From: Geothrix oryzisoli
GTDB lineage: Bacteria > Acidobacteriota > Holophagae > Holophagales > Holophagaceae
DNA length: 64,000 bases
Reading direction: 5' to 3'
NCBI RefSeq assembly: GCF_022808865.1
Contig: NZ_JAKZLB010000004.1
Span: forward strand, 124,001 to 188,000
The notes beneath the pieces are model-generated. The model was not told the origin of the DNA. It was given only the letters and a program-made list of their open reading frames with translations, and did not search any database. Made by a program: the position numbers and the translations under genes. Shown here one piece after another: positions 1 to 12,152 of this stretch. Position 1 is the stretch's first letter. The number at the start of each line of letters is the position of its first letter.

Positions 1-1410
1 CACGGCGGGCACCGCCAGGTTGGGCTCGAAGTTCGGCGTGGGGGCGCGGAACTCCCGGCTCGCCCTCAGACGGCCCTGCCGATCCAGCAGCCTCAGCCGG
101 AGCACGGGCGCCGCGGAGTCCGGAACCGCGGCCAACTCCCCCTGCATCACCAGGTCCGCGCCGGTCCGGACCACCAGACGCCGGACGAGGGCGGCCTCGT
201 TCCCCGCGGCCGCCGCCAGGGGGCGGACCTCCCCGGGCTCCCGATCCTGCACGACCTTCACCTGCGGGAAGCTGCGCAGGACATGCTCCAGCAGGTCCGT
301 GGTGGTGATCTCCGCCTGGGGCGTCAGCCCCGGATCGGGCGTGAAGTTCCGGATCGGCACCACCACCAGCCGGGCCTGATGCGAGGCCGAGAACTCCGGC
401 AGCACCCCCCGGCCGTAGGCCCAGGTGCCAACCCCCGCCAGGGCCAGCGTGACGGCCGCCGTGGCGGCGGCCCACCACACCGGGGAGGCCGGCGCCTGGA
501 GCTGATCCAGCCGCTCGACCACTTCCTGGGCGCCGGGGCGGGCGTCCGGATCCATGGACAGCAGGCGGTCCACCAGCACGCGCAGGGCGTGAGGTCCCGG
601 GGCATGCCCATGGGCATGCTGGCCCTGGCTCGATCGCCACTTGAGTACCCGCCGGGTCCAGGGGATCGGCGTGCGGTCCTTCGCGGGGGGCGGATCGCCT
701 GCCAGCGCCAGGGAGGCGACCACCCCGAGCGCGTACATATCCGTGGCCGCCGTGGCCTTCTCCCCCAGCAGCAGTTCCGGGGCGATGAACCCCCGGGTCC
801 CCATGACCGTGCCGGGCTGGGTGAGCGACCCCCGGGAACCCGGGCTCGTCACGGTGGTGGCCTCGTCCTCGGGCCGTGTGGACCGCGTGACCCAGTTGTC
901 CTCGGGCGCCCCCTCGAAGTCCTTGGCCAAGCCGAAATCCAGGAGCTTGGCCGAGCCCTCGGGCGTGATCAGGATGTTCGACGGCTTCAGATCCCGGTGG
1001 ATGACGCCCTTGGCGTGGGCCGCCGCCAGGGCGAGGGCCACCTCCCGGAGCAGCCGGATCGCCTTCGGCAGCGGCAGGGGGCCCTGCTCCAGCAGCGTCG
1101 AGAGGGGCGTGCCCTCCACCCACTCCATGGCCATGACCAGGGTTCCGTGGTGGTCCAGCCAGTCGTACACGTGGCAGATGCCGCCGTGGTCGAGCTTGGC
1201 CAGGATCTGGGCCTCGCGCTGGAACCGGCTGAGGGCCGCCTGCTGGCTGGCGTGGTCCGTGCGGATGGTCTTCAGCGCGACGCGGCGCTCCAGCGAGCCG
1301 TCCCAGGCCCGGTAGACCCGCCCCATGCCGCCTTCGGCCACAAAAGCCTCCACCCGGTAGCGGCCGACCACATCGCCGGGCTGAAGCGGACTGGCAGTCT
1401 GGAGTGCCAT
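1..1410 (-). CDS. Serine/threonine protein kinase with membrane anchor and TolB-like outer domain (C-terminus beyond window)
   Basis: Partial gene: the start ATG is at 1410 and the frame is open to base 1, giving 470 residues. The N-terminal half is a Hanks-type kinase: a glycine-rich loop (EGGMGRVYRAW, about residues 28-38), the VALK lysine near 45, the catalytic loop GVIHRDLKP near 133 and DFG in KLLDFGLA near 155. A hydrophobic stretch at about 308-330 (GVWWAAATAAVTLALAGVG) should span the inner membrane. The remainder begins RLVVVPIRNF and resembles the TolB-like/FlgO-type domain found after some bacterial kinases. It probably phosphorylates cytoplasmic proteins in response to an envelope signal; the substrate is unknown. 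The gene is divergent from the Ig-repeat gene at 1588. The kinase call is firm; the outer-domain call is tentative. Confidence 0.88.
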   Translation of the reverse strand, partial: MALQTASPLQPGDVVGRYRVEAFVAEGGMGRVYRAWDGSLERRVALKTIRTDHASQQAALSRFQREAQILAKLDHGGICHVYDWLDHHGTLVMAMEWVEGTPLSTLLEQGPLPLPKAIRLLREVALALAAAHAKGVIHRDLKPSNILITPEGSAKLLDFGLAKDFEGAPEDNWVTRSTRPEDEATTVTSPGSRGSLTQPGTVMGTRGFIAPELLLGEKATAATDMYALGVVASLALAGDPPPAKDRTPIPWTRRVLKWRSSQGQHAHGHAPGPHALRVLVDRLLSMDPDARPGAQEVVERLDQLQAPASPVWWAAATAAVTLALAGVGTWAYGRGVLPEFSASHQARLVVVPIRNFTPDPGLTPQAEITTTDLLEHVLRSFPQVKVVQDREPGEVRPLAAAAGNEAALVRRLVVRTGADLVMQGELAAVPDSAAPVLRLRLLDRQGRLRASREFRAPTPNFEPNLAVPAV

Positions 1411-1575
1411 GGGAGGTTGCTGGAACGGGACGCCAGCTGGACTGACCATCCCGCCCGGGCGATGGGCCCATCCTTTCAGGAAGTGGTGATAGTCGCAAAA
1501 AGTCTACAACCCCTGTCCATATTCCATGTTTTCGACATCGGCACAGCTGCTGCCTCGACGCAGGCCTTCCAGCGG

Positions 1576-1587
1576 TACACTCCCTGA
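1576..1587 (+). promoter_or_regulatory. -10-like element immediately upstream of the start (possible leaderless promoter)
   Basis: TACACT at 1576-1581 is followed by 6 nt and then the ATG at 1588. There is no Shine-Dalgarno sequence. This spacing would place transcription initiation at or next to the start codon. No convincing -35 is visible. Similar arrangements precede 38159, 45375, 47235 (minus), 53373 (minus) and 53938. Confidence 0.4.
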
Positions 1588-2796
1588 ATGCATCCCCTCC
1601 TGCCCCTGGTGGCCCTCTACGCCCAGGCTCCGACCCCTGCCGCCCTTGCGGTCGTCACCGCCGAGCCCAGAGAGGTGCGCCCCGGCGAGTCGGTGCTGCT
1701 CGCCTGGACCTGCGCCCAGACGCCCCAGGTGCGGCTGGAACCCGGCGGCATGATCCTGCCGGGGCGCTCCCAGGTGACGGTGCGGCCGGCCTACACGACG
1801 ACCTACCGCGTCTTCGATGCCAGCTCCGGCGGCGCCGAGCTCGGCCACGCGGAGGTGCGCGTCACTCCGGGGCTGCCGCTGGGCGAGGCCGCCCGCATCT
1901 GCGCCTTCGACGCCAGCGCCAAGGCCGTGCTGCCGGGCGATCCGGTGGTGCTCAAGTGGGAGTGCGCCGGCAGCGCCAAGGTGCGCCTGGAGCCCGGCGG
2001 GCTGGAGCTCGACGGCAAGAGCGAAGTGACCGTCACGCCCCTGGAGAGCACCCGCTACACCATCACCGCCAACAACGCCGCCGGCGGCCAGAGCCGCACC
2101 GTGGAGGTGGCCGTGCTGGGCCACCGCGCCCTGGCGGCCACCAAGACCCCCATGGCCAGCGTCTGCACCTTCGAGGCCAGCCGCACCGTGGTGAAGCCCG
2201 GGGAGCAGGTGGACCTGAGGTGGATCTGCCAGGGCGACGCCAAGGTGCGCCTGGAACCCGGCGGCCTGGAACTGGACGGCCAGTCCAGCATCGCCGTGGT
2301 CCCGGACAAGACCACGGTGTACACGCTGAGCGTCAGCAACCTCATGGGCGGCTCCTCCCGCAGCGTCGAGGTCCAGGTGGAGGCCCCGCGCCGGGTCCTC
2401 ACGGAGAAGGACCTCGCCGATCCCGAGGAGGCCGCGAAGCCCCTGGAGCACCTGGACCTGCAGGAGGCCCTGCACCGGGGCGCCGCCCGGCGGGCCGCCG
2501 CGCCCCAGGGTTCCTGGACCCTCCGCCTCGTGGTCTCCGGCCGCGCCGACGGTCTCAAGCAGGTGGCCCGGGCCGCGGGGCCCAAAGCCGCGGATGTCCT
2601 CGTGCTGCCCTATGTGCGCCCGGACGGCTTCCGCTGGTGGCAGGCCTGCTACGGCGCCTACCCCACCCGCGCCGCGGCCCTGAAGGCCTGGAGCCAAGCC
2701 CCCGCGCCGCTGAAGAAGGCCTTCCACGACGCCCTGCCCCTCCGGTTCCAGCACCTGCCCGGCGATCCGCCGAAAGCCAGCCCTAACCCCGGGTGA
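1588..2796 (+). CDS. Exported Ig-like repeat protein with C-terminal SPOR-like domain
   Basis: 402 residues. A short hydrophobic N-terminus (MHPLLPLVALYAQAPTPAAL) looks like a weak signal peptide. Three tandem repeats of about 85-90 residues follow (roughly 20-105, 106-195, 196-275), each with a Cys-containing first strand, a W-x-C strand and the signature VRLEPGG, typical of bacterial Ig-like folds. The two Cys per repeat suggest an intradomain disulfide. The last 100 residues (TLRLVVSGRADGLKQVAR to WQACYGAYPTRAAALKAW) match the pattern of SPOR domains, which bind denuded septal peptidoglycan. A periplasmic, peptidoglycan-associated role is inferred. The 3' end overlaps the convergent gene ending at 2783 by 14 bp. 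Confidence 0.72.
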   Translation: MHPLLPLVALYAQAPTPAALAVVTAEPREVRPGESVLLAWTCAQTPQVRLEPGGMILPGRSQVTVRPAYTTTYRVFDASSGGAELGHAEVRVTPGLPLGEAARICAFDASAKAVLPGDPVVLKWECAGSAKVRLEPGGLELDGKSEVTVTPLESTRYTITANNAAGGQSRTVEVAVLGHRALAATKTPMASVCTFEASRTVVKPGEQVDLRWICQGDAKVRLEPGGLELDGQSSIAVVPDKTTVYTLSVSNLMGGSSRSVEVQVEAPRRVLTEKDLADPEEAAKPLEHLDLQEALHRGAARRAAAPQGSWTLRLVVSGRADGLKQVARAAGPKAADVLVLPYVRPDGFRWWQACYGAYPTRAAALKAWSQAPAPLKKAFHDALPLRFQHLPGDPPKASPNPG

Positions 2797-3298
2797 CCTC
2801 CAGCGTGAAGGGTTCGCCGATCATGTTGGCGTCCAGGGTGTCCACGATGAAGTAGATGGTGCGCGTCTCCTTCGTGGGGTTCTCGTAGGTGGCCTGGGGT
2901 TCGCCGGTGGCGATCCGGTTCTGGAGCAGCCCGGGCTCGTCCCGCCCCCAGGCGTTCACGCCCAGCACCCGGAACCAGGCCTTCCGGCCCTCCACCACGT
3001 GCACCTTCACCTTGCCGCCCGCCGGCACCTCGATGGCGTAGGCCCGCCAGCCGCTGATGTCCGGGACCTTGTCCGTCACCCGGACACTGCCGGCCGGCAG
3101 CTGCAGCGCCGGAATGGACGGCCCCCTCCGGGCGGCCCGGCGGGTCTCCCCCGTGATGCTCGCCTCCGCGGCGACATCCGGGCGATGCGGCACCATGGGC
3201 CCCCGCGGGGCCTTGGGCAGGTCCTTGGCCTCCACCACCGGCAGGGGCGCCGGGGCCTGGAGGACCACCATGGGAAGCAGCAGCAGACCGGGCAGCAT
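2783..3298 (-). CDS. Small exported protein of unknown function
   Basis: 171 residues from the ATG at 3298, which has GGAGGT 4 nt upstream; a longer reading frame upstream lacks such support. The N-terminus MLPGLLLLPMVVLQAPAP is a signal peptide ending near residue 17. The mature part is a small, probably beta-rich domain (VRVTDKVPDISGWRAYAIEV, then VEGRKAWFRVLG and TRTIYFIVDTLD), reminiscent of the pre-peptidase C-terminal type of beta sandwich, but I cannot place it in a named family. It is convergent with the Ig-repeat/SPOR gene and overlaps it slightly. Confidence 0.6.
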   Translation of the reverse strand: MLPGLLLLPMVVLQAPAPLPVVEAKDLPKAPRGPMVPHRPDVAAEASITGETRRAARRGPSIPALQLPAGSVRVTDKVPDISGWRAYAIEVPAGGKVKVHVVEGRKAWFRVLGVNAWGRDEPGLLQNRIATGEPQATYENPTKETRTIYFIVDTLDANMIGEPFTLEVTRG

Positions 3299-3480
3299 GG
3301 GCACCTCCGCACATCCATCTCTTGGATGCTCCAAGCCCGGGATGGGTTTAGAGGTTCTGACAATACCCTACGCCGGGCCGGCAGGCCGGCCTCTGCCGCC
3401 GGCGAACTGCTTGTTGCAACAGGCAAGACGGGGGGCTATCGTCTGACAGCCCGATGCGGGCTTTCTACAAGGAGGAGGCA

Positions 3481-3933
3481 ATGCGGATATCACCTTCAAG
3501 GCTGTTCGTGCTTCCCTCGGCCTTGCTGGCCGGGGCCCTGGCCCTTGCGCCCAGCGCCCACGCCGGCGAAGCGCCCGGCAAGGCCGTCGCCCTCGCCGCC
3601 GACCAGCTTTCCTGGGAGGACCTGGCGGCCAAGGGCGTCGGCGTGATGGTGGCCGATGTCGAGGGCCACCACGCCAAGGGGGCCTGGCACGGCTTCGTCA
3701 AGTTCCCCGTGGCCAGCAAGAGCGGCGTCCACGCCCACTCCAGCGCCCTGAGGCTCGTCGTGGTGTCGGGCACCTTCCGATACGGAAGCGACCCCGACCA
3801 CGAGCAACCCTATGGGCCCGGCTCGTATGTCTTCATCCCGGCGAACCACCCCCACTCCAACAGCCAGCCGGACGGAGCCGTGGTCTACGTCGAGCAGTCG
3901 GGCAAGTACGACAACAAGCCGGCGGGGCACTAG
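3481..3933 (+). CDS. Periplasmic cupin-domain protein
   Basis: 150 residues. The start ATG at 3481 has AAGGAGG 6 nt upstream. The signal peptide ends near AHA-GEA (residue 26). The mature protein is one cupin barrel: motif 1 is GVHAHSSALRLVVVSGTFRYG and motif 2 is PGSYVFIPANHPHSN, giving HxH and HPH metal ligands. It resembles the DUF4437/ChrR-like cupins. Substrate unknown; binding of a metal or small molecule in the periplasm is likely. It stands alone between opposite-strand genes. Confidence 0.75.
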   Translation: MRISPSRLFVLPSALLAGALALAPSAHAGEAPGKAVALAADQLSWEDLAAKGVGVMVADVEGHHAKGAWHGFVKFPVASKSGVHAHSSALRLVVVSGTFRYGSDPDHEQPYGPGSYVFIPANHPHSNSQPDGAVVYVEQSGKYDNKPAGH

Positions 3934-3957
3934 TCCGACCCGCAGCGCGCCACCCGG

Positions 3958-4482
3958 TCAGCGGAGCACCTGGTACTCGCTCTGGACCAGGCCGCTCGGG
4001 AAGGACCGGGTGGCGACGTGATGCAGGCGGAGGTCGTGCGGCAGGGTGCTGAAGAGCGGGATGCCCTCGCCGATCAGCACCGGAACCCGGGTGATGATGA
4101 GGCGGTCCACCAGCCCCGCCCGCAGGAACCGCTGAATGGTGATGCCGCCGTCGACATACAGGTTCGTGGCCCCGCGCACCGCCAGCCGGGCCACGATCTC
4201 CGCCGGCGAGCCCGCCATCTGCTCCACCGCGCTGCCGATGGAGCTCGGCAGCCGGAGCGGCTGGCCGCTCAGCACCACCACCCGCTTGGTACCGTAGGGC
4301 CAGGGTTCGAAGGTCAGGACTTTCTTGAAGGTCCTGCGGCCGATGACCAGGGCATCGATGCCCGCCAGGAACTCCTCGTAGCCATGGGGTTCCCCGCCTC
4401 CCTCCGGCAGCCAGTCGAGGTCGTGGTTCAGGCGCGCGATGAACCCGTCCACGCTCGCCCCCACAAAGACGGACACCGTCAT
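3958..4482 (-). CDS. Dihydrofolate reductase family (RibD C-terminal-like) protein
   Basis: 174 residues. It begins MTVSVFVGASVDGFIAR, the typical opening of the RibD_C/YwjB-like reductase fold, and contains the IGRRTFKKVL and YVDGGITIQRFL segments that form the NADPH site. The length is normal for this family. The start is supported by GGGAGG about 6 nt upstream. The biological substrate of these stand-alone proteins is usually unknown. It lies 77 bp after the lipoprotein gene on the same strand, but no functional link is evident. Confidence 0.85.
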   Translation of the reverse strand: MTVSVFVGASVDGFIARLNHDLDWLPEGGGEPHGYEEFLAGIDALVIGRRTFKKVLTFEPWPYGTKRVVVLSGQPLRLPSSIGSAVEQMAGSPAEIVARLAVRGATNLYVDGGITIQRFLRAGLVDRLIITRVPVLIGEGIPLFSTLPHDLRLHHVATRSFPSGLVQSEYQVLR

Positions 4483-4560
4483 CAGGCCCTCCCACCCTTG
4501 GGTGGCGCGGGGCGGGTGAAAGTGACCGGATTCGGCTCAGCGAAGTCGCGTGAAGGGCCT

Positions 4561-5976
4561 TCAGGGGGTGCCGATGGGGGTCCGGGTGGCGGCTGTCGGC
4601 GTGAGCGTTCCGTTCAAGGCCGGCGTGGAGAGGGCAAGGGAGGTGGGCAGCTTGCCGGTGCTGTAGGCATAGCCGCTGGACACGGCATCGAGCGGAGGGC
4701 AGATGCCGCCTGGCTTGACCTTCAAGAACCAGGCGTCGCTGCTGGCCGACCCGGCTGCGGTCCGGTCCGAGACGAGGTAGGCGGCGCCGGTGGATGGATC
4801 GCTGTGAAGGGCGGCGCCAAAAAAGCCTTCGCTGGCCGTGGTCCCCAGGGTCTTCTGCCATTGCACCGCGCCGCTGGCCATCAGATCGATCAGCCAAAGG
4901 TCATAGCTGCCAGCGCCGAAGGCGCTGGTCGATCCCAGCAACTGGAAATGCCCATTGGGAAGCTCCTGGATATCGAGGGCTGAATTCCAGCCTGACCCGC
5001 CAATCCCGTTCTGCCAGGCCGTCAGGCCGGTTTCACCGATTTTGACGAACCAGGGATCCGTGAACCCGATCGAATCGGGGGACTGGCCCGCCAGGATGAA
5101 GCCGTTGTCGGACGTCGGGCGGATGATGGCGAAGGAAGAGGAGGAGCTGCTCCCGCCGATCCAGTTGCTCCAGGTCACGGTCTTCAAGTCCGGAGCGATC
5201 CGGGCGAACCATCCGCCCCGATGGTAGACGGACAGCATCAGGTCGGCATCTCCAGCCAAGGCGATCCCGCCGTCCGGCGTCTTGCACGCCGAAGCCACCC
5301 TCGTGAACCCTGGGCCGTCGTGTCCATTCCCATTCAATCCGACTTGACCGTTGAGGGAACCGTCCGCATTCAGATCGAGGAGGAGGCCCCGGTCCATGCT
5401 GGTGGTCGACTGGAAGCCCAGCACGCCGATGTGCTGCCCGGTGGGAACCGCGGCTGTGAAGACGGAACTCTGATACCCGCTTTCCGGAGCATGGCGGCGC
5501 TCCCACTGGATGCTCAAGTCGGCGTTGAGTTTCACGACCCATCCTTGAGTCCCGCTCGCGCCGAAGGAGGTGGTGCTCCCCGCCAGGAGGTAGCCGCCGT
5601 CGGGCGTCGCCCGAAGGTCATAGACCTTGTCCTCCCCCGCCCCCCCATAGGCGAACTGGGACACCAGGGCGCCATCGAGACCGGCCTTCACCAGCCAGAC
5701 GTCCGTCCCCCCGGCACCGAAGCTTTGGGTGACGCCGCCCATGAGCAGCTTGCCGTCGGCGGTGGGAATGATCAGGTAGAGCGAATCGGCCTGTGATCCG
5801 CCCAGGGTCTTGGCCCAATACTCCGTGGAGGCAGGAGGCGCGGGATCCGTTCCGGGGGCGGGCGTTCCCGCACTCGACGCGCCGCCACCCCCGCCCCCAC
5901 AGGCGATCAGGGCCGCGAGGCCGAAGGCGCAGAGAAGCCGGGGGGCGGCCTGGGACACAGCTTGGACTGGATTCAC
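4561..5976 (-). CDS. Outer-membrane or periplasmic lipoprotein with delta-60/beta-propeller-like repeats
   Basis: 471 residues from the GTG at 5976, preceded by AAGGA about 6 nt upstream; a longer upstream frame would run through the adjoining repeat element. The N-terminus has a hydrophobic segment and lipobox (AALIAC) followed by a glycine linker. The body holds about seven repeats of roughly 50-60 residues with the pattern TPDGGYLLAGSTTSFGASGTQGWVVK (shortened: GGYLLAGS, then W.VKL), typical of delta-60 or quinoprotein-like propellers that decorate the cell surface. Function unknown. It lies just past the leftmost attC-like element (6000-6121) and could be either flanking chromosome or a former cassette whose attC has been lost. 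Confidence 0.72.
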   Translation of the reverse strand: MNPVQAVSQAAPRLLCAFGLAALIACGGGGGGASSAGTPAPGTDPAPPASTEYWAKTLGGSQADSLYLIIPTADGKLLMGGVTQSFGAGGTDVWLVKAGLDGALVSQFAYGGAGEDKVYDLRATPDGGYLLAGSTTSFGASGTQGWVVKLNADLSIQWERRHAPESGYQSSVFTAAVPTGQHIGVLGFQSTTSMDRGLLLDLNADGSLNGQVGLNGNGHDGPGFTRVASACKTPDGGIALAGDADLMLSVYHRGGWFARIAPDLKTVTWSNWIGGSSSSSSFAIIRPTSDNGFILAGQSPDSIGFTDPWFVKIGETGLTAWQNGIGGSGWNSALDIQELPNGHFQLLGSTSAFGAGSYDLWLIDLMASGAVQWQKTLGTTASEGFFGAALHSDPSTGAAYLVSDRTAAGSASSDAWFLKVKPGGICPPLDAVSSGYAYSTGKLPTSLALSTPALNGTLTPTAATRTPIGTP

Positions 5977-5999
5977 GGGAGTTCCTTGCTTGAAGTGGA

Positions 6000-6121
6000 G
6001 ACCAACGAGGGAAGCGATCCGGCCACACCGGCCTCGAGGCCGAGAACGAGGCCGGGAAAACAAAAGATGGAGAGGGCGGAAGGTGTTTCAGGCGGGGCCC
6101 GAATGGAGCAGAAGGCCAGGC
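6000..6121 (-). repeat. attC-like site D (most degenerate)
   Basis: A 122 bp element aligning with sites B and C across the inner part (GAGGGCGGAAGG, then CAGGCGGGG). On the minus strand its cores are GCCTGGC (6121-6115) and GTTGGTC (6006-6000), each carrying one or two mismatches from GCCTAAC/GTTRRRY. It starts 7 bp past the stop of the gene ending at 6129. Probably no longer recombinogenic. Confidence 0.6.
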
Positions 6122-6128
6122 AGGGCCG

Positions 6129-6623
6129 TTATCTCTGGGCGGTGGATTCCACCATGATTCCAGTTCTGCTGCTGACTTTCATGGCGATGTTCATGGCTCG
6201 CTCGTGGGTGAAAGCGCCAAAGGCGTTTTCACCGAGATATAACTCGAGCCCATCACGGCAAACCAGGGCGATCTGCCAATTGGAGGACCTTCCGTATCTC
6301 CCGACTTTGATGGCTTGAAAGGCCTCCGAAGGCCTTCTCCATTCAACGAGGCCATACAGATTCTTCTTGTGAAATTGAATCACCTTGGGATGGCTGGAAG
6401 CGGTTAACCATTGATCGGCCGTGGCGCTGTAGATGCTCGAATAGACAAGAAGCAGTCCGAACAGCCCGACGACGGCCAGGAGCCAATGGGCAGAATGATT
6501 GGAGAGGTAAAGGTTCCTGACCAACCAGAGCAGGGCGACGCCTGGAAGCAGCGTCGCCACCGCCCAGCGATTTCCTTTGAACCGGAACGTCACGCTTTCG
6601 GGTGTTTCTTCGGAGATCACCAT
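6129..6623 (-). CDS. Cassette gene IV: two-TM membrane protein of unknown function
   Basis: 164 residues from the ATG at 6623 (MVISEETPES). The frame is open further upstream, but that part lies inside attC site A and its flank. A TTG at 6641 preceded by AAAGG is an alternative start. Two adjacent membrane segments (WAVATLLPGVALLWLV and WLLAVVGLFGLLLVY) follow a short N-terminal domain; the C-terminal half is soluble and mixed alpha/beta (NWQIALVCRDGLELYLGENA). The layout resembles small bacterial PH-like membrane proteins, but I do not recognise a family. The GC content is lower than in the neighbours, consistent with transfer. Confidence 0.6.
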   Translation of the reverse strand: MVISEETPESVTFRFKGNRWAVATLLPGVALLWLVRNLYLSNHSAHWLLAVVGLFGLLLVYSSIYSATADQWLTASSHPKVIQFHKKNLYGLVEWRRPSEAFQAIKVGRYGRSSNWQIALVCRDGLELYLGENAFGAFTHERAMNIAMKVSSRTGIMVESTAQR

Positions 6624-6686
6624 GATGGGTGGATTTTCTCTCAATGAGGCACCTTTGATCGTGAAACCCGGAACCTTGGAAAGGCT

Positions 6687-6814
6687 TCCTGACGAATGAA
6701 GCCAAGCGGCCACGCCTGCACCGAGGCGATGAACGGAGCCGAGGAAGCGTGCAGTTGAGAGAGAGCGCGCGAAATGCCGTGCAGGCGGAACCCGGGTTGA
6801 GTGGAGAATTAGGC
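6687..6814 (-). repeat. attC-like site A (decayed)
   Basis: A 128 bp element. On the minus strand the cores are GCCTAAT (6814-6808, one mismatch) and GTCAGGA (6693-6687). The inner arms CGCCTGCA and TGCAGGCG are retained, as is the central GAGCCGAGGAAGCG shared with site C. It begins 2 bp after the stop codon of the TonB-like gene. Confidence 0.75.
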
Positions 6815-6816
6815 GG

Positions 6817-7188
6817 TTACCGGGGCAGCTTAAAGGGGAAAATGATCTGGGTTTTGGTGAATTGTGGTACGCCTTTGATAAGGGTGGGCGCAAATCGCCA
6901 AGTCATGGCATACGATTCGGAGGTTGGAGCCAGTTCTACTGGCCCAGAGAGAGTCGTTGCACGTGATGGGATGCCATCTGGATCAATGATGAGCTCGACG
7001 ACCACCGTTCCCTGAATGTGTGTTGCTTTTGCGCCCTCCGGATATAGAGGCGCCGGAGGTTGGAATCTCACGACTACTTGAGAAAAATGTTTCTCGATTA
7101 CCATTGATCCTCGGGCGGGCGCAGGTTCCGTGTCGGTCTTACTACAACCAATAGCCATAAGGGAGAAGAGAATCATGGTTGTTTTCAT
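6817..7188 (-). CDS. Cassette gene III: lipoprotein carrying only a TonB C-terminal domain
   Basis: 123 residues from the ATG at 7188; the longer open frame to 7347 is read-through of attC site B and is not used. The N-terminus MKTTMILFSLMAIGC ends in a lipobox. The rest matches the TonB C-terminal domain: LYPEGAKATHIQGTVVVELI, then DPDGIPS and a final FPFKL strand. There is no transmembrane anchor and no proline-rich spacer, so this is not a complete TonB. It may act as a periplasmic or outer-membrane-anchored decoy or adaptor. No clear Shine-Dalgarno sequence is present, as is common for cassette genes. Confident domain call, uncertain role. Confidence 0.75.
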   Translation of the reverse strand: MKTTMILFSLMAIGCSKTDTEPAPARGSMVIEKHFSQVVVRFQPPAPLYPEGAKATHIQGTVVVELIIDPDGIPSRATTLSGPVELAPTSESYAMTWRFAPTLIKGVPQFTKTQIIFPFKLPR

Positions 7189-7209
7189 GATGAATCCGAA
7201 AAATGTGGC

Positions 7210-7333
7210 ACCTAACGGACGAAGCGAACCGACCCCGCCTGCACCGAGGCGCTGAGCAGAGCTGAGGAAGCGGGAAGCTGGGAGAGAGCGGAAGGCCATG
7301 CAGGCGGGGTCTGAGTTGAACTCAGGGTTAGGC
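7210..7333 (-). repeat. attC site B (intact cores)
   Basis: 124 bp. On the minus strand it runs from GCCTAAC (7333-7327) to GTTAGGT (7216-7210), both perfect matches to the attC consensus RYYYAAC/GTTRRRY. The inner arms GACCCCGCCTGCA and TGCAGGCGGGGTC are exactly complementary (13 bp), and the centre is variable. It starts 14 bp past the stop of the gene ending at 7348. This is the best-preserved site. Confidence 0.88.
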
Positions 7334-7347
7334 CGATGGGACCGCAC

Positions 7348-7725
7348 TTAGACTTTTGCACCCAGCAGACCGACCTTGAGGCCCTGGCTCTTGAGGTAAG
7401 TGGTGGCCTTCTGATTGAGAATAACAAGGCAAATCAAGTTGATAAGGGGGATGAACATGGCGATGATCCAGAGAACTGGGCCCAATGACAGCGCCTTGCA
7501 GAGTTTGTAGACGCACCAGATGCTGAATACAGCGACTGCCAATGCCACAGGAATGACCAGCAGACCGATCAAGGTGTCTGTCTTCATCAGAATGTTGCCC
7601 ACAAGGCTCGCGAGAATGCTCAGAAGCAACAGTCTCTGGGCCCTGGCGACATCCTGAGTGTTCGTACCCTCGCCTTGGGGATCAGCGACGACGGCGTTTG
7701 GCCCTGCATAGGGGTTCTGGTCCAT
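7348..7725 (-). CDS. Cassette gene II: small three-TM membrane protein
   Basis: 125 residues. The ATG at 7725 has AAGGAGA upstream at good spacing. The N-terminal 30 residues are polar (MDQNPYAGPNAVV). Hydrophobic segments follow at about 32-48, 53-75 and 83-103, and the protein ends in a short basic tail (NQKATTYLKSQGLKVG). Small proteins of this shape are common in cassette arrays and envelope operons; I cannot assign a function. It is bounded by attC-like sites C (upstream) and B (downstream). Confidence 0.7.
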   Translation of the reverse strand: MDQNPYAGPNAVVADPQGEGTNTQDVARAQRLLLLSILASLVGNILMKTDTLIGLLVIPVALAVAVFSIWCVYKLCKALSLGPVLWIIAMFIPLINLICLVILNQKATTYLKSQGLKVGLLGAKV

Positions 7726-7749
7726 GACTTCTCCTTGGGTTGGTGCGGG

Positions 7750-7873
7750 GCCTAAAAAATAAAACTAATCAGCCCCGCCTGCGCCGAGGCGATGAGCGGA
7801 GCCGAGGAAGCGAGGCGACGAGAAAGAGTGGAAGGCATTGCAGGCGGGGTCCGAGTTGAACTGAGGGTTAGGC
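7750..7873 (-). repeat. attC-like site C
   Basis: 124 bp, the same length as site B. The minus-strand core GCCTAAC (7873-7867) is intact. The other core is TTTAGGC (7756-7750), with the G next to the crossover point replaced by T. The inner arms CCCCGCCTGC and GCAGGCGGGG are retained. It starts 14 bp after the stop of the gene ending at 7888. Confidence 0.82.
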
Positions 7874-7887
7874 AAGCTTGTTGGTAA

Positions 7888-8301
7888 TCAATGAGCAGTT
7901 GTAGATGGGACAAGATGGACTCGAATTGTGATGTGAGAATTGGCCGGTAGCTTGAGCCGATGAGACTGAAGTGAATAATTGGTTTTGCCTACACTACCTA
8001 CACTAATTGAGTATTGACCTGGATATAAAGAACCTTCGGAATACCGGGTACTCTCGTAAGTTCTCAAGGAGCGTGGCCAGTCATTTATTGGAGTGATAAT
8101 GATGACCATATCTGGTAGCAATTCACCATTAGGGTCTACCGAGGTAATCTCGAGCGAAGCTAGGCCATCGTTCCTGTTGATAATTTCGGTAGAGATCTCG
8201 AATGCACTAGCTGAATTCACAACGGTGGCTGTTGGTGTGCTGCAGTCCAAGGTACTCAAAAGAAGAATTGCAATGAAGCAGATGGATTTCTTTGCGCTCA
8301 T
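7888..8301 (-). CDS. Cassette gene I: small lipoprotein with an Ig/carboxypeptidase-regulatory-like fold
   Basis: 137 residues. The start ATG at 8301 lies 5 nt after the GTTAGGC boundary core, so there is no room for a normal ribosome-binding site. The signal sequence MSAKKSICFIAILLLSTLDC ends with a lipobox-type Cys at residue 20. The mature domain has alternating strands (LASLEITSVDPNGELLPD, LYPGQYSISVGSVGK, HITIRVHLVP) like the carboxypeptidase regulatory-like beta sandwich. It is the most AT-rich gene in the window (well below 50% GC by eye), with codon use unlike its neighbours, indicating recent acquisition. Role unknown. Confidence 0.68.
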   Translation of the reverse strand: MSAKKSICFIAILLLSTLDCSTPTATVVNSASAFEISTEIINRNDGLASLEITSVDPNGELLPDMVIIITPINDWPRSLRTYESTRYSEGSLYPGQYSISVGSVGKTNYSLQSHRLKLPANSHITIRVHLVPSTTAH

Positions 8302-8522
8302 TGGTTGCCTAACCTTGGATTAGACGACTCAACCCATCACGGAGCCCGTCGCCAGATTATGGATGTAGGAACGATACCCACATTGGTGACCACCGGGTCC
8401 TTTCCCCGCTGAACGGAGGCAAAACCTGGGGCGAACGGGGACTCCCCGCCCCTCGGATGGCGCGGGAACATGGATTACCCTGCTGCGCGGCCGCCATCTT
8501 CAGGGGGTTCAGACTCCGCCGC
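8302..8522. other. Junction between the cassette cluster and lpxB
   Basis: Contains the boundary core GTTAGGC (minus, 8313-8307). To its right, no second attC core and no intI-like coding sequence is visible before lpxB, so the cluster appears to abut the chromosome directly here. A GC-rich hairpin (CGGGG-ACT-CCCCG, 8436-8448) could terminate lpxB transcription, but it lacks a T-run on the minus strand. Confidence 0.5.
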
Positions 8523-9656
8523 TCAGGCCTGGAGCTTCCCCAGCAGGTCCTCGGCCACGCGGCCCGCGGCTCCCGGCTCGCCCAGGTGGCCGCGCACCTC
8601 ACCCAGCTCGGCGCGGACGCGACGGGCGGTGCCGGGGTCCAGCAGGCGGGCCAGCTCCACGCCCAGCCGCTCGGGGTTCACCTCGCCCTGCAGCAGCTCG
8701 GGGGCCACCTCGCGGCGGGCCACCACATTGGCGAGGCCGAAGAGGGGGACCTTCACGATGCGGCGGGCCATCTGGTAGGTGAGGGCGTTCAGCTTGTAGA
8801 CGATGGCGAAGGGGGTGCCCAGCAGGGCGGTCTCCAGGGTGGCGGTGCCGGAGGCCACCAGAGCCGCGTCCGCGTAGGCCCGGGCGGCGTAGGGGCGGTC
8901 CTGCACGAGCGTCACTGGGGCGTCCCCCAGATGGGCGCGCACGAAGGCGGGGTCCAGCGTGGGGGCCACGGGCAGCGCCCACTGCACCTCGGGCCGGGCC
9001 GTGCGCCAGCGCCTGGCCAGCTCCGCCATGGGCGGCAGCAGGCGCTCGATCTCCCCCCTGCGGCTGCCGGGCAGCAGGGCCACCAGGGGCTGCGCGGGAT
9101 CGAGGCCGGTCTCGGCGAAGAAGGCGGCGCGGTCGCACTCGGGCTTCACCACCTCCACCAGGGGATGGCCCACGAAGCGGGCATCCACGGGGTAGCCGCG
9201 GAACAGCTCCGGCTCGAAGTCGAAGAGGCAGTAGAGGGTGTTCAGCACCGTGCCCAGCTCGGGGATGCGCCCCTTCTTCCAGGCCCACACCTGGGGGCAC
9301 ACATACTGGTGCAGCGTCACGGCGGGCAGCTGCTTCCGCAGGGCCTTGGCCAGCCGCAGGTTGAAGCCCGGGTAGTCGATGAGCAGGGCGCCGGCGACCG
9401 CCTCCTCCGCCGCGGCGGCGAGGATGGCCTTGAAGAGCCGGTTCAGGCGCGGCAGGTGCTTGATGACCTCCACGAAGCCCACGACAGCGAGATCCTTCAC
9501 GTCCGCCAGCTTGCGGTCCAGGAAAGGCGTCATGCGCGGGCCGCCGACGCCGATGATCCGCAGGTCGGGACGGCGCGCCTTCAGCTCGCGCAGCAGCTCC
9601 GCGCCATGCAGGTCGCCGGAGTCCTCGCCCGCGATGACGAGCAGGGTCGGGGTCAC
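8523..9656 (-). CDS. lpxB: Lipid-A-disaccharide synthase
   Basis: 377 residues (E. coli LpxB has 382). The GTG start at 9656 overlaps the upstream stop in GTGA and has AAGGGGGG 7 nt before it. It opens TPTLLVIAGEDSGDLHGAEL, the conserved N-terminus. GVGGPRM, HQYVCPQVWAWKKGR and DYPGFNLRLAK are further LpxB signatures, and SGTATLETAL forms the UDP-sugar site. It joins UDP-2,3-diacylglucosamine and lipid X to make the lipid A disaccharide at the inner face of the membrane, so the cell makes lipid A. It is translationally coupled to the upstream gene of unknown function. Confidence 0.95.
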   Translation of the reverse strand: MTPTLLVIAGEDSGDLHGAELLRELKARRPDLRIIGVGGPRMTPFLDRKLADVKDLAVVGFVEVIKHLPRLNRLFKAILAAAAEEAVAGALLIDYPGFNLRLAKALRKQLPAVTLHQYVCPQVWAWKKGRIPELGTVLNTLYCLFDFEPELFRGYPVDARFVGHPLVEVVKPECDRAAFFAETGLDPAQPLVALLPGSRRGEIERLLPPMAELARRWRTARPEVQWALPVAPTLDPAFVRAHLGDAPVTLVQDRPYAARAYADAALVASGTATLETALLGTPFAIVYKLNALTYQMARRIVKVPLFGLANVVARREVAPELLQGEVNPERLGVELARLLDPGTARRVRAELGEVRGHLGEPGAAGRVAEDLLGKLQA

Positions 9657-10339
9657 GCGTGGCCCCCCTTGCGCTCCAGGTGCCGCCCGAACATCACGCT
9701 GTCGTCGGGGACCACGGGGCGGCCCAGGGCCGTGGCGGGCATCTCCGCGGGGAAGAGCACCGGCGGATGGGCGGCCTCCAGCGCCGCGGCCTGGGCGCGG
9801 AAGGTGGCGGGCTCCGCGGCGGGCAGGGCCATGTCCCAGCGGTAGCCGAGCCTCTGGAGGGCGCTCAGGTCCGAGCCCGGCTCGCAGACGCCGCACCAGA
9901 GGCGGTCCGCCAGCAGCTCGGGATCCGTGGTGCCGGGATGCCAGCAGTAGCCCACGGCCTCGGCCCGGGCCTGCCGCAGCAGCTCCACCACTTCGGCCTC
10001 GGCCCCGCCCTCGATCCGCAGGGCCAGCTTCACGCCGCGGCCGCTGGTGGCCTCCAGCAGGGTCTCGAGGTGGCCCAGCAGGCGGAAGCCGCCCTCCCGG
10101 TTCTGCGGGCGGGCCGCGGGCAGGATGAGGAAATCCGGGGCCAGCGCCGCATGGAGCGCCGCCAGGGCCTCTTCCACGGGGGCCTGGCCGGGCAGGTCGA
10201 TGGCGTGGACCGCCAGTCCCCGGCGGACGGCGGCCGGCCAGTCCGGATGCAGCTGGCCCTCCCACCGCAGGGTCACGGGGGCGAAGGGGAACCAGGACCC
10301 GGGATCAAAACTGGATGGAATCTGGGGCACGAACCGCAT
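9653..10339 (-). CDS. Conserved hypothetical protein coupled to lpxB
   Basis: 228 residues from the ATG at 10339 (MRFVPQIPSS). An ATG at 10384 would add 15 residues but would overlap the divergent DUF2203 gene. Neither start has a good Shine-Dalgarno sequence. The sequence alternates helices and strands (FLILPAARPQNREGGFRLLG, VKLALRIEGGAEAEVVELL, AVGYCWHPGTTDPELL), suggestive of a TIM-barrel of the sugar-phosphate isomerase kind, but no catalytic motif is recognised. The 4-bp GTGA overlap with lpxB implies co-expression and perhaps a role in lipid A or envelope synthesis; that is inference from position only. Confidence 0.6.
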   Translation of the reverse strand: MRFVPQIPSSFDPGSWFPFAPVTLRWEGQLHPDWPAAVRRGLAVHAIDLPGQAPVEEALAALHAALAPDFLILPAARPQNREGGFRLLGHLETLLEATSGRGVKLALRIEGGAEAEVVELLRQARAEAVGYCWHPGTTDPELLADRLWCGVCEPGSDLSALQRLGYRWDMALPAAEPATFRAQAAALEAAHPPVLFPAEMPATALGRPVVPDDSVMFGRHLERKGGHA

Positions 10340-10367
10340 CGGCTTATCATGGAGCAATGGAGGCGCC

Positions 10368-10730
10368 ATGGGCCGCATTTTCACCCTCGACGAAGCCCGG
10401 GCCCTGATGCCGCAAGTGAAGGCGGTGACGGAACCTGTCTACACACTGGCCGCGAGTCTCGCCGAAGAGCTCAGCCATGCGGAGGAAGTGCCCGACGATG
10501 TCCGGGCCGAGGAACTCCGCGAACGCCTGCAGACCCTGGTCGAATCCTGGCAGGAGAGCATGCAGGACCTCGAGGCCGACGTGAAGGGCCTGTGGCTCGT
10601 GGATTTCGATTCCGGCGACGGCTACTGGTGCTGGGCCTACCCCGAGGAGACCCTCGACCACTGGCACAGCTACGAAGGCGGCTTCCGTTCCCGCGTGCCC
10701 GCCGACCAGCGGCCGGGCGTGCAGGCCTGA
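10368..10730 (+). CDS. DUF2203 family protein
   Basis: 120 residues. The ATG at 10368 has GGAGG 4 nt upstream. It starts GRIFTLDEARALMPQVKAVT, the conserved opening of DUF2203. A predicted helical region follows, then VKGLWLVDFDSGDGYWCWAYPEE and HWHSYEGGFRSR, the conserved C-terminal segment of that family. Function is unknown in all members I know of. It is followed after 4 bp by the alkyltransferase-like gene, with which it probably forms an operon. Confidence 0.8.
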   Translation: MGRIFTLDEARALMPQVKAVTEPVYTLAASLAEELSHAEEVPDDVRAEELRERLQTLVESWQESMQDLEADVKGLWLVDFDSGDGYWCWAYPEETLDHWHSYEGGFRSRVPADQRPGVQA

Positions 10731-10734
10731 GCGC

Positions 10735-11142
10735 ATGCCCAAGCCCAGACCCGCGAAGCGCATCGAACCCATGGCCCCGCCCCGCGACTTCCGCGCGGCG
10801 GTGCTGGCGGTGGTGGCGCGGATCCCCAAGGGCAGCCTGGCCTCGTACGGCCAGGTGGCCCTGCTGGCGGGGTTCCCCCAGCGCCCGCGCCAGGTGGGCA
10901 TGGTGCTGTCGGGCCTGCCCGAGGGCACCGACCTGCCCTGGCACCGCGTGGTGAACACCCGGGGCTATGTGCCGAGCCGGGGCCGCTGGTGGGGGGCCTT
11001 CGAGCAGATCACCCGCCTCCGCGACGAAGGCATCGAGGTGGACGACCAGGGCAACCTGGACCTGGAGGCCCACCGCTGGGACGGCTTGGACCGGAAGCCG
11101 AAGGCCGCCCCCAGACGCCCCGGGACCCGGAACAAGGCCTGA
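10735..11142 (+). CDS. atl: Alkyltransferase-like (ATL) DNA lesion-binding protein
   Basis: 135 residues. It has the MGMT C-terminal DNA-binding fold: RIPKGSLASYGQVALLAG contains the helix-turn-helix with the arginine-finger region, and the active-site motif PCHRV of true O6-alkylguanine transferases reads PWHRVVN. Trp in place of the acceptor Cys is the hallmark of ATL proteins, which bind alkylated guanine without repairing it and hand it to nucleotide excision repair. The C-terminus (about residues 115-135) is basic and probably disordered. It sits 4 bp after the DUF2203 gene; no other repair gene is adjacent. Confidence 0.85.
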   Translation: MPKPRPAKRIEPMAPPRDFRAAVLAVVARIPKGSLASYGQVALLAGFPQRPRQVGMVLSGLPEGTDLPWHRVVNTRGYVPSRGRWWGAFEQITRLRDEGIEVDDQGNLDLEAHRWDGLDRKPKAAPRRPGTRNKA

Positions 11143-11217
11143 TTCCGCCGCCTTCCGGGGCCGCCCGCCCCGCCGGACCGGGGCCCGCTCAGGTACACTG
11201 GAGGGGCGGAGGGCTCC

Positions 11218-11454
11218 ATGAAGGTGCGCGTGTCGGTACAGTTGAAGCCGGGGATCCTGGATCCCCAGGGCAAGGCGGTGGAGCAGGGTCTGCACGGTTT
11301 CGGCTTCGAGGTGGAGCATGTCCGCATCGGCCGGCTCATCGAGCTGGACATTCCGGGCGCCGATCCGGCCGAGGTGAAGGCCAGGGCCCAGGCCATGTGC
11401 GACAAGCTGCTGGTCAATCCCGTGATGGAGAAGGCCTCCATCGAGGTGCTGTGA
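11218..11454 (+). CDS. purS: Phosphoribosylformylglycinamidine synthase subunit PurS
   Basis: 78 residues, the normal length. MKVRVSVQLKPGILDPQGKAV is the canonical PurS start, and IELDIPGAD is the second conserved strand. PurS bridges PurQ and PurL in the three-part FGAM synthase, step four of purine synthesis. It overlaps purQ by one base in TGATG, so the two are translationally coupled. purL is not adjacent but lies about 5 kb away on the opposite strand. Confidence 0.93.
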   Translation: MKVRVSVQLKPGILDPQGKAVEQGLHGFGFEVEHVRIGRLIELDIPGADPAEVKARAQAMCDKLLVNPVMEKASIEVL

Positions 11455-12152
11455 TGCGGGTGGCGGTGCCGATCTTCCCGGGCTCCAACTGCGACCACGA
11501 CGCCCTCCACGCCTGCGGCACGGTGATGGGCTGGGAGACGATCCCCGTCTGGCACCAGGAGGCGCGGCTGCCGGAAGGCACGGAGCTGGTCTTCGTTCCC
11601 GGCGGCTTCAGCTATGGCGACTACCTGCGCTGCGGCGCCATCGCGGCCCTGGCGCCGATCATGGCGGACGTGAAGCGCCACGCGGACAACGGCGGCCTGG
11701 TGCTGGGCGTGTGCAACGGCTTCCAGATCCTCTGCGAGGCCCAGCTGCTGCCCGGCGCCCTGCTGCGCAACGAATCCCTGCGCTTCATCCACGCGGACGT
11801 CCACCTGCGGGTGGAGCGGGCCGACCTGCCCTTCACCCAGGCCATGAAGGCCGGCGAGGTGTTCCGGGTGCCCATCGCCCACGCCGAGGGCAACTTCACG
11901 CTGGACCCCGCCGACCTGGCGGACTTGGAGGCCCGCGGCGGTGTCGCCTTCCGCTACTGCTCGGCCCAGGGCGAGATCGGCGAGGACCATGTCCCCAACG
12001 GCGCCATGAACGGCATCGCGGGGATCGTGAACCTCCAGGGCAATGTGCTGGGCATGATGCCCCACCCCGAGCGGGCCGTGGATCCCAAGCTGGGCCCCAC
12101 GGGCGGCCTGGGCGTGTTCCGGAGCCTGGCGGCGGCCTTCAGCAAGGTGTGA
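11454..12152 (+). CDS. purQ: Phosphoribosylformylglycinamidine synthase glutaminase subunit PurQ
   Basis: 232 residues, close to the usual 225-230. Class I glutamine amidotransferase: nucleophile Cys87 in LGVCNGFQ, and His204 and Glu206 in MMPHPER complete the triad. The N-terminal FPGSNCDHD and GGFSYGDYLRCGAIA are PurQ signatures. It releases ammonia from glutamine and feeds it to PurL through the PurS-bridged complex. The start overlaps the purS stop by one base. Confidence 0.95.
   Translation: MRVAVPIFPGSNCDHDALHACGTVMGWETIPVWHQEARLPEGTELVFVPGGFSYGDYLRCGAIAALAPIMADVKRHADNGGLVLGVCNGFQILCEAQLLPGALLRNESLRFIHADVHLRVERADLPFTQAMKAGEVFRVPIAHAEGNFTLDPADLADLEARGGVAFRYCSAQGEIGEDHVPNGAMNGIAGIVNLQGNVLGMMPHPERAVDPKLGPTGGLGVFRSLAAAFSKV

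Follow-up and report, generated by a model that had tools for sequence, protein, structure and literature searches.

Acidobacteriota are already on record as carriers of integrons (PMC8618304), and there is also a phylum-specific model for attC (PMC8352920). Genome surveys find CALINs about as commonly as complete integrons (PMC9024848), and off-target insertion, loss of intI and rearrangement have been proposed as their origins (PMC8618304). Conserved CALIN loci are described from Xanthomonas and contrasted there with the broad use of attG sites in E. coli (PMC12444791). Our literature search returned no description of an integron from Geothrix or Holophaga and, with the primary attG paper outside its coverage, no account of orphan attI platforms or of attI-headed arrays without intI that are served in trans.

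We characterized a cassette cluster from a member of the genus Geothrix (Acidobacteriota, Holophagae), using 47 Geothrix genomes for comparison. The window, by which we mean the whole stretch of 64 kb that was analysed (G000:C4:124001-188000), belongs to a genome of 3.23 Mb in seven contigs. A preliminary description had recognized in it an integron-type cassette cluster of an acidobacterial chromosome, with four minus-strand genes each followed by a repeated element. The coordinates bear this out, as all four genes end 2–14 bp before an element that matches an attC model. The features of the region, in window positions, are as follows.

3958-4482, minus strand: DHFR/RibD-C-like gene; conserved downstream flank, outside the array
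4561-5997, minus strand: gene for a lipoprotein-like, beta-propeller-type protein; accessory, without an attC after it
6001-6122, minus strand: attC of cassette 4; 42 bits, E = 2e-9; strongly degraded, R'' GCCTGGC
6129-6623, minus strand: cassette 4 gene; membrane protein of about 164 aa
6688-6815, minus strand: attC of cassette 3; 95 bits, E = 6e-24; both cores damaged (GCCTAAT, GTCAGGA)
6817-7188, minus strand: cassette 3 gene; 123 aa, lipoprotein-like start, TonB C-terminal domain (Pfam TonB_C, E = 3e-10)
7211-7334, minus strand: attC of cassette 2; 125 bits, E = 4e-32; both cores intact, good bottom-strand fold
7348-7725, minus strand: cassette 2 gene; membrane protein of 125 aa, no family
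7751-7874, minus strand: attC of cassette 1; 121 bits, E = 4e-31; R'' GCCTAAC intact, R' damaged (TTTAGGC)
7888-8301, minus strand: cassette 1 gene; 137 aa, secreted or lipoprotein-like, no family
8307-8326, minus strand: attI-like core, CGTCTAATCCAAG followed by GTTAGGC; marks the 5' border of the cassettes and presumably the point where IntI inserts
8327-8450, minus strand: left flank of the core site; conserved sequence that also follows lpxB in other Geothrix species
8523-9665, minus strand: lpxB, lipid-A-disaccharide synthase (Pfam LpxB, E = 1e-89); conserved upstream flank, outside the array

The cassettes are AT-richer than their surroundings, as had been noted, with a GC content of 48–56% within the cassette region and 64–76% on either flank. 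They had also been said to encode small envelope proteins. Signal-peptide-like and membrane segments agree with that view and are what the assignment is read from, since TonB_C is the one family match among the four proteins. The gene at 4561-5997, whose product shows weak similarity to delta-60 repeats, was absent from the 40 relatives' lpxB loci checked; we regard it as accessory too, because homology of the flank resumes at 4528-4537, beyond that gene.

An Rfam scan of 5800-8500 gave no relevant match, and an attC covariance model, R1, was therefore built with 30 attC as the seed, all taken from the genome's own intI-linked array, and with the window left out. Scanning the 64-kb window with R1 produced exactly four matches, one at each of the four sites, and the next-best hit had an E value of 0.4. 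The four elements lie within 1.9 kb, 388 kb from the nearest intI, and are 60–81% identical to one another. Their common attC design, as claimed earlier, is thus upheld by the model at all four sites; the two consensus cores (R'' RYYYAAC and R' GTTRRRY) are present together in one of them, 7211-7334, compared with 22 of 31 main-array attC under the same strict rule. Folding of the bottom strand, the check suggested with that claim, gave the same picture: 7211-7334 reached z scores of −2.7 to −3.2 against shuffled sequences and was alone among the four in clearly outdoing them in both of the folding windows tried. The missing cores and weak folding read as the decay of what seem to be true attC sites. 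With two mismatches in its core and three of its four attC lacking a consensus core, the window array is, to judge from these features, decaying, and this copy is probably mostly immobile now, one attC having retained both cores.

The cluster had been described as lacking intI. This is true of the window, where neither intI nor a remnant was found at 1-12000, but not of the genome: the genome-wide search that had been proposed yielded 47 attC matches and one intact intI at C4:518770-519714, 388 kb from the window cluster, which matches the TIGR02249 profile with 466 bits (cut-off 265). The main array of about 32 attC adjoins this gene, and its attI core lies at C4:519978. Thus, a complete integron, comprising intI, attI and an attC array, exists in the genome at a locus other than that of the window, and the window cluster, 388 kb away from it, is a CALIN of a genome that also has an integron. 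The main array is cut by the end of contig C4, and the rest of it most likely lies at the end of contig C2, which also bears attC; as the assembly breaks inside the main array, with attC at both contig ends, its number of cassettes is a lower bound. Six groups of attC are dispersed elsewhere.

Window: 4 attC
C1, 1022 kb: 3 attC
C4, 372 kb: 2 attC
C3, 84 kb: 2 attC
C1, 563 kb: 2 attC
C3, 181 kb: 1 attC

Among named genomes that bear intI, the nearest relatives are Geothrix species, and full-length sense IntI can be read from their loci.

The GTTAGGC previously seen just upstream of the first gene is indeed there, at 8307-8313, and it forms the right part of a longer likeness to attI. The window border reads GTCTAATCCAAG followed by GTTAGGC and the attI of the genome GTCCAATTCAAA followed by GTTAGGC, with two mismatches between them; the attI of the main integron is CGTCCAATTCAAA followed by GTTAGGC (L018:279). 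L and R boxes, with the crossover between G and TT, can be discerned at the head of the array as GTCTAAT-N5-GTTAGGC. When the 12 bases to the left of GTTAGG were compared with attI at up to four mismatches, the window border was the only one to match among 58 such sites in the window and a piece of the main array. Genome-wide (3.23 Mb), the 17-base core GTCYAATTCAAAGTTAG occurred at five places with up to three mismatches and a control pattern at one. One of the five is attI itself and the others form the 5' borders of four of the six dispersed clusters; the remaining two clusters carry looser cores, TCGTCTAATTCTAGTTAGG and CATCTAAGGGTAGTTAGGC, in which TCTAA is followed by a spacer of 5–6 bases and then GTTAGG. 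The likeness of the window site to attI spans only about 20 bp: beyond the core, no similarity to attI was found in the lpxB left flank, and the attI element TTAGGCGAAC, which would lie about 30 nt upstream, could not be told from background either in the window or at the lpxB site of other genomes. The lpxB site belongs to a core-only class of satellite sites. Its left flank (8327-8450), which is 71–84% identical in nucleotide sequence between the window and relatives, is possibly regulatory.

We read the stretches downstream of lpxB in 40 relatives. Homology to the window stops at the core and restarts at window 4528-4537. In seven relatives (G006, G007, G008, G014, G017, G025 and G041) a similar core at the lpxB site precedes genes that carry attC of the same family; G024 has a degraded version of the core, and in G042 genes and degraded attC follow it. 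At least eight other Geothrix genomes have a similar core but other cassettes downstream of lpxB. The cassette genes of the window were not found at the lpxB locus of relatives, save for a homologue of the TonB_C gene with 45% identity in G017, and these differences hold even against relatives whose LpxB is 92–94% identical. Homologues of cassette 4, with 72% and 68% identity, occur in a different satellite array in G025 and G041 (L233 and L224). In G040, lpxB adjoins the DHFR-like gene without cassettes between them, and the 130-bp left flank is missing as well; a cleanly empty site that retains the left flank was not found among the 40 stretches. Since relatives carry a similar core with different cassettes, the lpxB locus is not a fixed block.

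Sites of this kind recur across the genus. An intI above the cut-off was present in 29 of the 47 Geothrix genomes and core matches in 40, and we examined 60 stretches around core matches. All 42 core sites that lie away from intI and have enough downstream sequence are followed within 3.5 kb by an attC in the right orientation, the weakest being that of L214 (E = 0.004). Several satellite sites form orthologous families with conserved upstream sequence, and about 20 sites carry, in addition to the core, the upstream attI element TTAGGCGAAC at a distance of about 30 nt. A conserved module about 125 bp long, GTCCGCCCATTTCCGGTCTGCC..TATTCA..TCAACACTTAC..GATTAGGCGAAC, precedes many orphan cores, about 125 nt upstream, and is common to L228, L231, L235, L236, L242, L244, L245, L247 and L267; it was not seen at the main attI and may be a promoter or a variant of attI. 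The number and state of intI vary as well: G011, G012 and G019 have two intI genes, and that of G040, a genome with only 14 attC, is split in two and interrupted by a stop. G004 has an attI core that heads cassettes and, 146 nt upstream of it, a piece of the N-terminal part of intI (L264, 390-557; 64% over 56 aa), which likely reflects loss of intI leaving an orphan attI.

Two genomes assembled as one contig, each with one intI, allow the arrays to be viewed whole. In G032 the main array comprises 33 attC, and a second array of 35 attC, with the head GTCCAATTTAAAGTTAG, lies 0.95 Mb away; G044 has a main array of 21 attC and satellites of 19, 27 and 8. The ten arrays of G032, G002 and G044 that were compared contain 431 GTTAGG sites, of which ten come within three mismatches of the left half of attI. 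These ten are distributed one per array and always stand at its head, and all others differ by at least five mismatches. The attI of G044 is a variant, GTCCAATTACTAG (spacer TTACTAG), and the ACTAG variant also heads its three large satellites, while its smaller ectopic sites retain CAAAG. Cassettes 93–98% identical are present in different arrays of one genome, in different order. In G044, satellite B and the main array have four cassettes in common, each spanning attC to attC; satellite C and the main array have one, as do satellites A and C. The main and second arrays of G032 have two in common. By comparison, the orthologous second arrays of G032 and G002 have little in common, at about 88% identity.

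From these comparisons, the window very probably carries a small satellite array (CALIN) that belongs to a multi-locus chromosomal integron and received its cassettes from IntI acting in trans. The attC identity of the elements, the intact intI, the attI core at the border, the turnover at one locus and, in other Geothrix genomes, the sharing of near-identical cassettes between arrays are established at the level of sequence. IntI, produced from the single intI 388 kb away, would recombine attC cassettes into the attI-like core downstream of lpxB. This site and similar ones would then serve as extra entry points, where cassettes are gained, lost and exchanged in trans with the main array. IntI is probably the cause of these patterns, and the sites are presumably still used in some species. 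Homologous recombination could also provide a route for cassette exchange between main and satellite arrays.

Other explanations of the cluster have to be weighed against this one. Plain off-target insertion, whereby a chance attG site merely resembles attI, is an unlikely but serious alternative: IntI-mediated insertion at attG sites is experimentally known (Loot et al. 2024, as cited in PMC12444791 and PMC12901181), and the attI likeness of the window site extends over only about 20 bp. Chance pre-existing targets nevertheless explain the whole set of sites poorly, because exact left halves, TCGTCYAATTCAAAG, of which there are 15 cases in the 47 genomes, occur only at attI or cassette sites. 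Such an AT-rich 15-mer is hardly to be expected by chance in GC-rich genomes. Moreover, many satellite sites carry the upstream attI element or the common module, and the sites of G044 track its own attI variant. We consider it improbable that a second complete integron once stood at lpxB and has since lost its intI. The genomes with two intI and the remnant of G004 provide precedents, yet no intI remnant was detected near the window site or most of the satellite sites tested, the gap between lpxB and the core is just about 200 bp, and the same locus is occupied in about nine species.

Rearrangement is among the proposed routes to CALINs (PMC8618304), and the attC family of the window is that of the main array; that a piece of the main array became detached in this way is nonetheless highly improbable, as the flanks are the conserved lpxB neighbourhood of many species, the break falls exactly at the attI-like core, and the main array retains its own attI. 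Harder still to credit is a fixed, vertically inherited block of genes and repeats without mobility. The position of the site is conserved across species, but no window cassette is found at the locus in relatives whose LpxB is 92–94% identical, the single 45% homologue excepted.

The satellite reading of the window leaves several routes by which the cores could have come about: an attI module may have been copied, extra integrons may have lost their intI, to which the G004 remnant points, or the sites may have converged on the preference of the resident integrase. In Geothrix, one recombinase gene typically coexists with several arrays whose first site is a copy of attI or resembles it, so that the integrase-less clusters look like outposts of a single dispersed system. 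We lean, with some reserve, towards a distributed Geothrix integron with one integrase and several attI-headed arrays at conserved addresses, to which the core or module would have been copied and where it would be kept matched to the integrase; many CALINs would then be live platforms rather than debris. If orphan attI sites of this kind are real, several cassettes per genome stand first in line near different promoters, and the view of cassette expression in chromosomal integrons would be altered. Geothrix offers a natural comparison for the origin of CALINs, having the same site with different cassettes, borders that point to IntI and sharing between arrays. As a simple addition, integron finders could check CALIN borders for likeness to the resident attI.

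Among described systems, the window array resembles CALINs in having several attC-flanked genes with no intI nearby (PMC8618304); it differs in its attI-like start, its intI-bearing genome and a locus that serves again, with other cassettes, in at least eight further species. The sedentary chromosomal integrons of Vibrio and Xanthomonas likewise have intI, an adjacent attI and a long homogeneous attC array, whereas Geothrix has several arrays per genome, each with an attI-like head, and one intI. The CALINs of Xanthomonas also occupy recurrent chromosomal loci across species, with intI at one locus; an attI-like border is not described for them in the accessible text (PMC12444791), while the Geothrix genomes document a border core, cassette turnover and cassettes common to several arrays. 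Insertion at attG (Loot et al. 2024, as cited in PMC12444791 and PMC12901181) is similar in that IntI places cassettes outside the integron in trans. Its use in E. coli is, however, broad and genome-wide according to PMC12444791, in contrast to the few attI-core sites that Geothrix has kept over species divergence. The delta-attI-type cassettes of mobile integrons, too, have attI fragments out of place, and PMC12901181 presents these as functional in recombination. There, attI replaces attC at the end of a cassette, whereas the attI-like core of Geothrix heads an array. Taken together, the cluster is of a kind already known as a CALIN, and the combination of one intI with several attI-headed arrays looks like a new variant.
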